Under the pieces are notes generated by a model. That model saw nothing but the letters and a program-made list of their open reading frames with translations. It ran no database searches and was not told the DNA's origin. Source: Entophlyctis helioformis (Eukaryota; Chytridiomycota; Chytridiomycetes; Chytridiales; Chytriomycetaceae). Taken from it: DNA of 64,000 bases. Location of the stretch: positions 62,001 through 126,000 of the forward strand of contig JAHLKH010000014.1 of NCBI GenBank assembly GCA_025526915.1, in the 5' to 3' direction. Numbering within the stretch: the stretch's first letter is position 1; the number at the start of each line of letters is the position of its first letter. Positions 1 through 4,431 of the stretch are shown here, in pieces. The translations under genes and the position numbers were made by a program.

Positions 1-1447
1 GCGACCAATCCTGTAAGCCACTTGCATGCTAAACTTGCGCATTGGTGCACATGCATTGCACATTCCTCACTCATGCATGGCATGACAGGGCAAGCTCAGC
101 TTCTACGCCTCGCAGCGATTGCTCAACATCATCAACGCCAACAATCTGTTCACTGACCAAGGCTACCAGCTGTTCGCGTTGTCAGCTTGATTGGGGCAGC
201 GGTACCTGTATGGCGCGTCCAGTATCTGGTTGATCTCAGAGACTTTCGTATAAGCTCGAGTCCAACTATGTGCTCTCCTCTGGCATGTTCAAGCTGAGCG
301 TGACTTTCAGCAGTGGTATGCATGCAATGACTCTGCCATGCGCACTCTTGACCAGATCAACTCACAGTGCTTGTCTCTTGTGTCAGGTTTGCTGATCGAC
401 TTGCCAAGGCTGCTGACATCCACAAGCCATCGCATTCAAGACAGCAAAGCATGCCGATCCAGGCGTCAAGCCTGGCGAGAGAGCCTTTTGGGATCTGCGC
501 TGCCATGCGTACTGCACGCCATTCCTGAATGCACGGGTACGCTTTCTCTGTATCTGGATGCCCATTGACATGACCGCCATGCTGCTTGATCGCCATGCTG
601 ATTGCACTGGATGGCATGGCATGGCGTGGCATTCCACAGAAGGTCAAGGCCAAGCGGTTTGCCATGCGCTGCAGCGCATGTCTGATCGCGGACAGCTCTT
701 GAGGGCATCATGAAGCTGGCAGGATCGACCACTGGAGAGCGTGCATCCGATGCGTCTCAAGGCCGCTGTGACAAGCCAACAGAGAAGGACATTCCCGTTG
801 TCTGGGCATTTGGCATCGACTTTACAGGTCAAGGTGGCGGCACGCTGTGTTTGAGAAGTTCTCATCAGGCATCTGCGGTCGTCTGGATATGCCTATGTGC
901 GTCTGATATGCCATCCATCCATCCATCCATCCATCCATCCATCCATCTGTGCACCAACTGACACACGATCATGCCACACACCACACACACACACCACACA
1001 CACACACACACACAGATCTACCGCTGCAACGAGAACCTGACCAGCCAGATGTGCCCGCAGTGCAAGCAGCGGATCCCATACGAGAACCGCACCAACCTGC
1101 GACGCTACGAGTGCATACCATGCAAGACCGTCTACCACCGAGACGTGCTTGGAGCCACCAACATCGGGATGGTTGCACTGTGGCATCTGCTCTTTGGACA
1201 CCGGCCGCTCTACTTGACGCACACGCCACCTGACAGCAATCCAGCCACGCCAGAGTACCTTGCAGACATTGAGGCAACTCATCATGACATCCAGTGGCGT
1301 GCACAACATCACATCATGCTGCTCGCGACACCGCCTGATCAGCCTGTCGTCCAGCAGCCTCCGTCACCCGATCTGCTTCCCTTCAAGTTGCACGTGGCCT
1401 CATGGGATCAGATCATGCTGCCATGTCTGCCAACAACAACACTTTGA
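1..1447 (+). CDS. Fanzor-like (eukaryotic TnpB) RNA-guided nuclease, 3' part, left-truncated by window
   Basis: The last exon (about 1016-1447, after a CA-repeat ending in an acceptor-like CACACAG) encodes the C-terminal signature of Fanzor/TnpB nucleases. It reads E-N-L-T-S-Q-M followed by CPQC, then R-R-Y-E-CIPC about 20 residues on, then YHRDVLGATNI. The two CxxC pairs would form the zinc ribbon, and the Asp of HRD would be the RuvC-III catalytic residue (family knowledge). Upstream pieces join in phase: 240-315 to 463-536 (ending RAFWDLRCHAYCTPF), a piece at 89-185 (KLSFYASQRLL) and one near 710-831 (PVVWAFGIDFTG), the likely RuvC-II neighbourhood. The exon near 640-700 does not close cleanly, so the gene is either intron-rich or decaying. 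About 90 residues follow the RuvC-III motif before the stop at 1445-1447. The N-terminal half lies outside the window. An IS605/IS607-type element remnant is the main alternative. Confidence 0.72.
911..948. repeat. (CATC)n microsatellite
   Basis: About nine CATC units in tandem, lying in the presumed last intron of the Fanzor-like gene. Confidence 0.9.
972..1014. repeat. (CA)n-type microsatellite next to a splice acceptor
   Basis: An imperfect CA/CCA tract runs up to the acceptor-like CACAG that precedes the Fanzor zinc-ribbon exon. It would serve as an unusual pyrimidine-poor 3' intron end. Confidence 0.85.
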
Positions 1448-1465
1448 ATCGGGGGACCTCCCGAT
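1448..1465. other. Short inverted repeat just after the Fanzor stop codon
   Basis: ATCGGG (1448-1453) and CCCGAT (1460-1465) are perfect reverse complements around a six-base loop, starting one base after the stop codon. It could be a transcript-end hairpin or part of an element's right-end/guide RNA scaffold. Only the pairing itself is seen. Confidence 0.4.
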
Positions 1466-1660
1466 CGACCTAACGGGTCACTTCAATAGAAGGTGAGACC
1501 CTTGTTGGATGTGCCATCGCCCGCCTGTCGTCGCATGCTCGTTGCTGACTCGAACCTCCCATCGTGTGATATCTGGGTTGCATCCGTCGCCTCTTGCCAC
1601 GAATTTAATTCCAAAATCCTTGGTGTTTGTTTGAATATCGTCCCGTCAATCAAGCCCATC

Positions 1661-4431
1661 ATGAACGGCATGGTGTGTGCTCCTGTGCCTCTGTGCTCGT
1701 GTGCCATCTGTCGAGTGCTCCTGTGCTTCAGCAGACAGAGAAGCGGCCGGTGGCAGGCTGTTGGTTCTTGATGCAATGGTCCAAGTGGGTCCTTTCAGGG
1801 GCAGTGACTCTGCAGCCGTCCTACAACATCGTCGCGGTTCATGCCGCACAGGACCGTTGTGGGACCCTGGCTCGCTCAGATCACGGTCGGCTGGACCGTT
1901 GCGGTCCTGCTCGAGCTGCTCGAGTAGTTGAGCGGCTTGAGCAGCAGCAGTTGTGCGCCACCTGCCAGCCGGTCTGCACCATGTTCACCATCCGCCGACC
2001 GCCGACCACCTACCACCGACCGACCGCCGCCTGCTGTTCGTCCTCTCGGCGGCTCAGATCGTCTGCCTTGGCCGCCTGCTTGCTCCGTCCAAGCCAGACC
2101 CACGCCGGACCGCTGCAGACCGCCACAGCTCCGCCCGCCTGCACGCCGCCCTCCATCCCCACTTCCAATGCCGCCCGCTGCAACAGACCCGCCTGTGCTA
2201 ACCGTGCCCTGCTTGTGTGTCCAGCAACCCCAAGTCATTATCCTCAGAGAGGGCACCGACACCTCGCAGGGCAAGGGCCAGCTGCTGTCCAACATCAACG
2301 CCGCCATGGCGATTGCCGACACCATCCGCACCACTCTTGGCCCCCGCGGCATGGACAAGCTCATTGTCGACTCCAAGGGTACATGGCCTGCCTCCATCTC
2401 GTCCCTTGGATCCATTCATACTGACCACGCTCTCTTTCCTGTTCCGCCCGCCCGCTCGCCCATCCGCACTGACTTGTCTTGCATATGCACGCTCACGTTC
2501 GTCTTGCATCAACTGCCGCCCGGCATCAAGGCTCCGTCACCATCTCCAACGACGGTGCTACCATCCTCACGCTTCTGGACATTGTGCACCCTGCTGGAAA
2601 AGCCATTGTCGACATCTCCCGTGCACAGGATGCCGAGGTTTGTCTGCCGTGGACTCGGAGGCGTTTGCTAGACACGATCCTGCACACTCACATCTGCAAC
2701 CCTGCTGGATCTACACCATGGATTCGTCTGGATGAATGCACAACATGGGAATGCTGGATGCGTCTGGACAGGTCGGCGATGGCACCACCAGTGTCACACT
2801 GCTTGCTGCTGAATTCCTTAAGGAGGTCAAGCAGTATATTGAGGAGGGCGTCTCACCCCAGATTATCATCAAGGGCTTTAGACGCGCTTCCGTGTTGGTA
2901 GGCTCATGCATTCATGCACTCCATCATTGGTGGCATGTCTGCTTGTCATCGGACGGCTGACGCTGATCTCTCCCTTTGCTCTGGCGCTCGCATGCGTTTC
3001 CAGGCAGTGAACAAGATCCGTGAAATGGCTGTCCAGATCGAGCGCAAGAACGAGCTGTACGCCTCTCTTGTCCACTCTTCACTTAATGCCATGCTGCCAG
3101 ACGCTGATGCTCCTGCCCTCGATGCCATGTTACAACAGCGAGTTCCGCCAGCTCCTTGAAAAGTGCGCATCCACTGCCATGTCGTCCAAGCTCATCCACG
3201 GCCAGAAGGACTTTTTCACCAAGATGTGTGTGGATGCCGTGCTGAGCCTCGACCAGGTTGAGCTCAACGAGAAAATGATTGGCATCAAGAAGGTTGCTGG
3301 CGGTGCCATGCAGGACTCGCTCCTCGTCAACGGTGTTGCATTCAAGAAGACGTTCTCGTACGCCGGCTTCGAGCAGCAGCCCAAGAGCTTTGTGAACCCC
3401 AAGATCATCTCGCTCAACGTCGAGCTTGAGCTCAAGGCCGAGAAGGACAATGCCGAGGTCCGCGTGCAGGAGGTTTCCGAGTACCAGGCTATTGTGGATG
3501 CCGAGTGGTCCATCATTTACGAGAAGCTTGACAAGATTGTGGCGACCGGCGCCAAGGTTGTGCTCTCCAAGCTGCCCATTGGAGACCTCGCAACGCAGTT
3601 CTTTGCCGACCGCGACATTTTCTGTGCCGGCCGTGTTGCTGCGGACGACCTGAACCGTGTCGTGCAGGCCGTTGGCGGTGCGATTCAAACGTCAGTCAAC
3701 GATATCCAGGAGCACCATCTCGGCACGTGTGCCAAGTTTGAGGAGCGCCAGATTGGTGGCGAGCGCTTCAACGTGTTTGAGGGATGCCCTCTTGCCAAGA
3801 CATGCACGCTCGTACTCCGTGGTGGTGCCGAGCAGTTCATTGCCGAGGTCGAGCGCTCGCTCCACGACGCCATCATGATTGTCCGCCGTGCGATCAAGAA
3901 CAAGTCTGTGGTTGCTGGCGGCGGTGCCACCGAAATGGAGCTGTCTACGTACCTGCGCAAGTATTCGCGCACGGTCGAAGGCAAGCAGCAGATGATTATT
4001 GCGTCGTTTGCCAAGGCGCTCGAGATCATCCCTCGCCAGCTTTGCGATAATGCAGGCTTTGATGCTACCGACATTCTCAACAAGCTCCGCCAAAAGCACA
4101 CCCAGGGTAAGCTAGCCATGCCTTTAGGCCGTGCTGTGTAGATGATTCGAACGAATGGCTGATGATGCGCACGACACTGTTCAATGCTACAAACTGTCCA
4201 GGTGGCATGTGGTACGGCGTGGACATGAACAGCGAGTCGATTGCCGACAACTTTGAGCAGTTTGTGTGGGAGCCCGCACTGGTCAAGATCAACGCGATTG
4301 CGTCCGCCACGGAGGCTGCGTGTCTGATTCTGTCAGTGGACGAGACGGTCAAGAACCCGCAGTCCGAGGCACCCCAGGCCGGCCCGCCAATGCGCGGTCG
4401 TGGCCGCGGCCGCGGTATGCCCCGCCGCTAA
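1661..4431 (+). CDS. CCT7: T-complex protein 1 subunit eta (CCT7)
   Basis: Subunit of the cytosolic TRiC/CCT chaperonin that folds actin, tubulin and other proteins with ATP. Seven exons follow the family end to end: 2225-2378, 2531-2637, 2772-2897, 3004-3056, 3139-4106 and 4202-4431, plus an unproven start exon. Visible motifs are [37 protein letters not shown] (ATP site), the long apical/intermediate exon with AVVDAEW-like and [12 protein letters not shown] stretches, [11 protein letters not shown], and a C-terminal GRGRGRG tail. An intron with a CTAAC branch at 2198-2202 and acceptor at 2224 precedes [12 protein letters not shown]. The best start is therefore a 12-base exon at 1661-1672 (MNGM) followed by GTGTGT and a 552-base intron, but this is not certain. 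All later junctions keep phase. Length and residues look fully functional. Confidence 0.97.

Follow-up and report, generated by a model that had tools for sequence, protein, structure and literature searches.

Fanzor nucleases are among the closest described counterparts of the protein treated here, and the passages of PMC10711439 that deal with their active site place the catalytic glutamate six residues ahead of the zinc ribbon, find DPG nearly exclusive at RuvC-I, use a search pattern of 120–160 residues from RuvC-I to the glutamate, and mention a separate TnpB clade that has the same alternative glutamate together with D-hydrophobic-G. Other passages of that paper put the copy number of some Fanzor transposons in the hundreds, and report a three-stem fold, TIR and TSD included, for Fanzor1 guide RNAs (PMC10711439). 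PMC3627910 describes Fanzor elements that belong to no known superfamily and have patterned target duplications. For studies of the role that Fanzor-type nucleases play in their transposons, the chytrid Entophlyctis helioformis offers a natural test bed, with a compact genome, well over 100 related copies in several subfamilies, RuvC exons that read through, 1-kb derivatives with the 3′ region, and readable borders. A second point of comparison is provided by the Academ transposons, which encode an XPG-type nuclease and have target duplications of 3–4 bp; to our knowledge, no Fanzor-type nuclease is known in Academ.

The window analyzed here, a stretch of 64,000 nucleotides, comprises G000:C14:62001-126000 of the Entophlyctis helioformis genome (29.6 Mb, 482 contigs). 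In all likelihood, the genome contains a high-copy, intron-rich DNA transposon with a Fanzor-like nuclease of the TnpB family, and the stretch at the left edge of the window is what remains of the 3′ end of a copy that is dead (Table 1). The anatomy of the element is a composite, pieced together from stretches of several copies rather than read from one copy intact over its full length.

Table 1. Parts of the element copy at the left edge of the window, and the adjoining gene (window positions).
Feature	Position	Strand	Basis and remarks
Upstream Fanzor-gene exon, 3′ end	1..12	+	donor GTAAGC at 13; sibling comparison; remainder in C14:57419-62000
RuvC-I exon, decayed	89..315	+	227 nt vs 233 in siblings; in-frame TGA 188-190
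Second RuvC exon	387..536	+	150 nt vs 151 in siblings
Third RuvC exon	640..896	+	257 nt vs 261 in siblings; broken frame
Last exon	1016..1447	+	NENLTS with alternative catalytic glutamate, CxxC...CxxC zinc ribbon, RuvC-III D (YHRD); PF07282, ORF
Three consecutive hairpins directly 3′ of the stop codon	1446..1497	+	alignment, pair counts, folds of eight sibling forms
Conserved 3′ non-coding end, candidate omega-RNA scaffold	1448..1640	+	genome matches; 3′ boundary common to sibling loci
Downstream host gene, first coding exon	1661..1672	+	read from sequence; 20 bp past element end

The Entophlyctis family resembles Fanzor1 elements such as SPu-1 of Spizellomyces punctatus in its zinc ribbon, in the glutamate six residues before CxxC and in the RuvC-III aspartate, and it is likewise transposon-borne with inverted ends, target duplications and the high copy number seen in some of them (relevant passages of PMC3627910 and PMC10711439). 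It differs in having DWG instead of DPG, and in an extra FEN/XPG-like domain. Furthermore, 183 residues separate DWG from the glutamate, which lies outside the 120–160 residues of the Fanzor pattern; as insertions are reported for Fanzor1s, this is a weak mark against a Fanzor. The first-pass annotation had named the gene a Fanzor, and this identity stands as far as the superfamily and the glutamate are concerned, but not with respect to DPG, and the additional nuclease-like domain is atypical of Fanzors. Since the glutamate is present and DWG fails one Fanzor fingerprint, we call the protein “Fanzor-like”. The pair of DWG and alternative glutamate is found in the D-hydrophobic-G TnpBs, but these are described among TnpBs in the passages concerned (PMC10711439), whereas the Entophlyctis gene is nuclear, intron-bearing and fungal, and the likeness is one of motifs. 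Phmmer and profile comparisons with the solved Fanzors gave no match at E up to 10 except in the TNB region (E 0.1–0.7), where one match was to the TnpB-like protein L79. Academ, as generally described, shares the combination of a transposon with an XPG-like domain, but its 3–4-bp duplications contrast with the 8 bp of the Entophlyctis element. In the account given of MCi-2, an unclassified Fanzor element of Mucor circinelloides, variable 5′ parts are likewise joined to a constant, Fanzor-bearing 3′ part and the target duplications are patterned, as ATAATTNNNN(N) in MCi-2, but these are 11–12 bp long and there are no recognisable TIRs, as compared with the 8-bp duplications and 6-bp ends in Entophlyctis (PMC3627910, in part). 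High copy number alone is not new, since the passages cited above already report hundreds of copies for some Fanzor transposons (PMC10711439); what is unusual, as predicted from the sequence, is the additional nuclease-like domain together with an active site that departs from DPG. The word XPG is absent from the main text of PMC3627910, PMC10711439 and PMC10432273, and Entophlyctis is not mentioned in the main text of the Fanzor papers queried, including PMC10711439.

Predicted nuclease parts of the gene

By its motifs and its profile match, the last exon is a member of the TnpB/Fanzor nuclease superfamily. As the first-pass annotation had reported, E-x-x-TS-x-x-CPQC, RRYECIPC and YHRDVLGATNI follow each other in one open frame of the window (962-1447, +), in which the exon proper (1016-1447) encodes NENLTSQMCPQC...RRYECIPC...YHRDVLGATNI; the spacing from the glutamate to the first cysteine is six residues, the CxxC gap is 16, and 6 residues lead to the aspartate. 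The superfamily signature that had been read from these motifs was borne out by an HMM search: PF07282 (Cas12f1-like TNB) matched the window exon with an E of 2.1e-9 and 37.8 bits (cut-off 26.3), and a spliced sibling with an E of 3.3e-11. In 15 sequences, the pN/pS of the zinc ribbon was 0.38, and the other two reading frames gave 1.6 and 1.1.

The predicted gene contains at least ten GT-AG introns. Four RuvC/TNB exons with the same splice sites form one frame in three of the seven parsed copies (L012, L027 and L014), while L025, L018, L022 and the window copy have these exons without read-through, and L028 lies outside the parsed set. The JGI protein model P0009 agrees in the first two of these splices. 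The RuvC D-E-D of the three read-through copies consists of the D of GIDWG/SFDWG, the E of NENLTS and the D of YHRD, and RuvC-I is DWG in all eight copies with an unbroken motif, of nine found. The Ka/Ks median of the RuvC-I exon is 0.44 (7 sequences), and, judged by such substitution ratios, the nuclease exons are under purifying selection. We infer that the family protein would have nuclease activity and would be guided by RNA.

The upstream exons encode, in this order, HVD.LS, HVDG, EAD.CIA, DSD and, mostly, (N/T)D(Y/F), and the acidic residues of the first four motifs are invariant in five subfamilies, with N at the last site in one. This is the order of the acidic motifs in the FEN/XPG 5′-nuclease family. 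Pfam XPG_I_2 matched four of five members, the best with an E of 4.9e-4 and under the curated cut-off, and a six-frame search with PF12813 recovered none of the element copies. The Ka/Ks medians of three exons of this domain are 0.20, 0.33 and 0.30 (10, 3 and 7 sequences). Structure models built from seven JGI proteins were of low confidence: the first had XRN1 at the top, and a closer look at its matches showed EXO1 and FEN1 alongside unrelated folds that scored just as well, and the second gave no clear fold match. We call the N-terminal domain FEN/XPG-like; it is probably a 5′-nuclease, which would either be fused to the RuvC part or be encoded by a separate gene. In the coding middle part, the pieces tested contain no recognised domain. 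By eye, the annotated protein P0008 (395 aa) joins the N-terminal domain of the transposon to an unrelated, copia-type polyprotein-like part, and this chimera is either a nested insertion or a mis-annotation.

The 3′ end and its candidate guide RNA

Three hairpins 3′ of the stop codon suggest a candidate guide RNA, a plausible omega-RNA. In 36 distinct sequences, which come from 82 matches of which many represent one copy twice (two more were unparsed), 97.8% of the cells pair. Two pairs are altered on both sides (6 cells); among 500 shuffles, none reached 6 cells, and 123 reached two pairs. The stem-loop that forms the third hairpin varies from copy to copy, and the eight folded forms have z-scores of −1.6 to −5.7. 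The folding stability of the whole 3′ region is no better than that of shuffled sequences, a consensus structure computed from 67 3′ ends is weak with an unfavourable covariation term, and Rfam gave no match in five loci.

These folding results bear on an alternative that deserves attention, namely that RNA guidance has been lost, that the 3′ end is only a transposase-binding and termination region, and that the RuvC protein aids transposition in some other way. The weak folding of the whole region and the few compensatory changes, two pairs being a number that 123 of the 500 shuffles reach, are what one would expect in this case, but the position of the 3′ end is the one where TnpB/Fanzor guide RNAs lie, and the Fanzor1 guide RNAs were reported with three stems, TIR and TSD included (PMC10711439, passages as above). 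The third hairpin, moreover, is maintained despite sequence change, and the nuclease exons show the purifying selection described above. We consider a loss of guidance unlikely, and prefer to read the hairpins as part of a candidate omega-RNA.

Copies, ends and mode of movement

In a genome search with PF07282, all 150 scored candidates, out of 205, were above the cut-off, so that there are at least 150 zinc-ribbon exons and the zinc-ribbon signature is not a matter of chance. An exon about 5 kb upstream of the zinc-ribbon exon has 143 matches in the genome, among which at least six copies are split into two, and its true copy number is therefore slightly lower. The 21-base 5′ end occurs 90 times at up to three mismatches (67 times exactly; 0 in the reversed control), and at the 3′ end all 40 scored genome matches, among 204 candidates, have 87–100% identity. 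A second group, recognisable by about 50 bp of extra 3′ tail (GGCCATTTGCCGGC...CCCACCCCT) at 79 places (e.g., L017:4660-4710), has a different N-terminal part and, in three copies, a 5′ end beyond the 4 kb searched. With about 7 kb per copy, the family is estimated to make up about 3% of the genome. Protein searches for relatives returned no match, 8 matches and 3 matches, all 11 of them from Entophlyctis helioformis, and a scan of viral contigs found no relatives of the element among them.

Among the 19 copies with both ends in the lists compared, for which a few ends had to be extrapolated by some bases, 13 measure 7.2–9.8 kb, with a median of 8.96 kb. Of the remaining six, three are about 1.0 kb long and the others 11.6–15.9 kb, the latter possibly because they carry insertions. 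In the 1-kb derivatives, both ends are retained together with the zinc-ribbon exon and the 3′ region. The element starts with GGCCCGG... and finishes with ...ATATCGGGCC, the termini being the 6-bp GGCCCG/CGGGCC. Target duplications of 8 bp (at least 7 junction bases in common) are present at 13 of the 22 paired ends whose two flanks the script could read, as compared with 13 of 462 mismatched pairs; the script detected none in the other nine, and two further duplications (C138, C102) were seen by eye. Two pairs, C272 (L085)/C18 (L087) and C436 (L079)/C35 (L016), have common flanks on both sides and therefore represent duplicated host segments or alleles and not independent insertions, which reduces the independent count to 11 of 20; as the flanks are identical, the 1-kb forms of C35 and C436 are a single insertion. 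Among 28 left flanks, 27 have A/G at position −12, 19 have A at −11 and 15 have A at −10, and the 8-bp duplication tends to read N-R-A-A-N-N-N-N.

A LINE-like spread by retroposition, with a fixed 3′ end and 5′ truncation, had been the initial reading, as some copies, including that of the window, have no 5′ part and the 3′ end is constant, but it was given up in view of the precise 5′ end common to 90 copies and the target duplications with their fixed length of 8 bp; the introns are kept, both ends are present in the 1-kb derivatives, and some of the apparent truncations are probably later insertions, so that we regard retroposition as highly improbable.

The C60 element carries, at its 5′ end, a tandem array of about five 28-bp units, CCTGGTGGAATCGCTGTGATTGGTCAAT (L043:2247-2388), each with an ATTGG (inverted CCAAT) box, and the number of units varies between element copies. 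By its sequence, this repeat appears promoter-like; the monomers of LINE-1 are comparable promoter-like tandem repeats. The first ~1.5 kb of the C60, C9, C219 and C172 copies (L043, L046, L047, L048), apparently non-coding, is 91–93% identical between subfamilies, and the coding part behind this leader only about 72–78% between the same four; the higher identity of the leader would be accounted for by exchange between subfamilies through recombination, or by selection on the leader. An intron of the C292 copy contains an insertion of about 170 bp that starts with TGTAACGGATGC and is flanked by CATGATG (L041, ~1134-1305), and a related piece adjoins the C58 copy (L038, near 843-906); the insertion is probably a short non-autonomous transposon.

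As the element leaves an 8-bp duplication, it most likely moves as DNA, and this movement would involve a factor beyond those recognised: in the coding pieces scanned, Pfam gave no match over the cut-off to a transposase or recombinase. Since no transposase was recognised, the FEN/XPG-like domain could be part of the transposition machinery, or it could trim 5′ flaps during joining. The 3′ end would be transcribed into an omega-RNA with the adjoining host sequence as guide, the nuclease would cut the empty allele or the donor site, and the break would be repaired on the template of the occupied copy, so that an element is restored or added and the copy number stays high. The 1-kb derivatives may be mobilised in trans. 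The most far-reaching version would give the transposon two nucleases, a flap nuclease of the FEN/XPG-like kind and an RNA-guided one of the TnpB type, which jointly serve its mobility with no classical transposase involved; in this version, DWG with the alternative glutamate marks a second, independent eukaryotic capture of TnpB outside the DPG Fanzor clade. We put this forward as a speculation that is decidedly more likely to be wrong than right.

The copy in the window

By alignment with the sibling L022, the contig could be followed leftward to a recognisable start of the element at C14:57419, some 4.6 kb outside the left edge of the window, and the genome-wide list of 21-base 5′ ends has no entry on contig C14; the window copy therefore lacks its first part. 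Introns were located at 13-88, 316-386, 537-639 and 897-1015 by sequence reading and sibling exon lengths, in agreement with the intron-rich gene that the first-pass annotation had expected. The upstream exons that it had joined in phase do exist, but they fail to join: single-base losses have occurred in the three RuvC exons, whose lengths fall short of those in each of the three read-through siblings (Table 1), and the TGA of the first sits where siblings encode V-G/S-I/F-D-W-G. In the last exon, the C-terminal tail is variable and the stop TGA lies at 1445-1447.

Barring an assembly error at 89-900, the TGA in RuvC-I and the shortened exons leave this copy unable to encode an active nuclease, and its sequence is that of a dead 3′ end, 5′-truncated and frame-broken. 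RuvC-I is thus lost, and the description as a dead relic applies to the copy and not to the family; what had been proposed as a candidate programmable system is a broken copy of a high-copy transposon. That it should be a single, possibly active Fanzor gene placed by chance in a housekeeping region is hardly credible, even with an intact last exon that has all zinc-ribbon and RuvC-III residues, in view of the in-frame stop, the shortened exons, a sibling alignment that begins only at C14:57419 without a 5′ end on C14, and the many further copies in the genome.

The locus had been taken to end at 1447, but the element reaches 1640, where it stops without the terminal GGCC that its siblings have, and the ATG of the next gene follows 20 bp further. 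This gene, which we take to encode the CCT eta chaperonin, looks like a housekeeping gene, in keeping with the setting that had been noted.

Insertion targeting of 5′ leaders was considered and dropped, as the enrichment of ATG frames in right flanks is not significant against random positions: 16 of 35 right flanks scored, whereas the opposite strand of these flanks gave 7, the left flanks 2 of 9, and random positions in the window 1266 of 4000 (right flanks against random, p 0.058; 0.21 and 0.11 at two other score limits), and longer flanks include oppositely oriented genes. Individual copies end 5–45 bp ahead of an ATG frame of the same direction (L013, L016, L051, L058, L065 and L069), and the same arrangement is seen in the window at 1641-1672.
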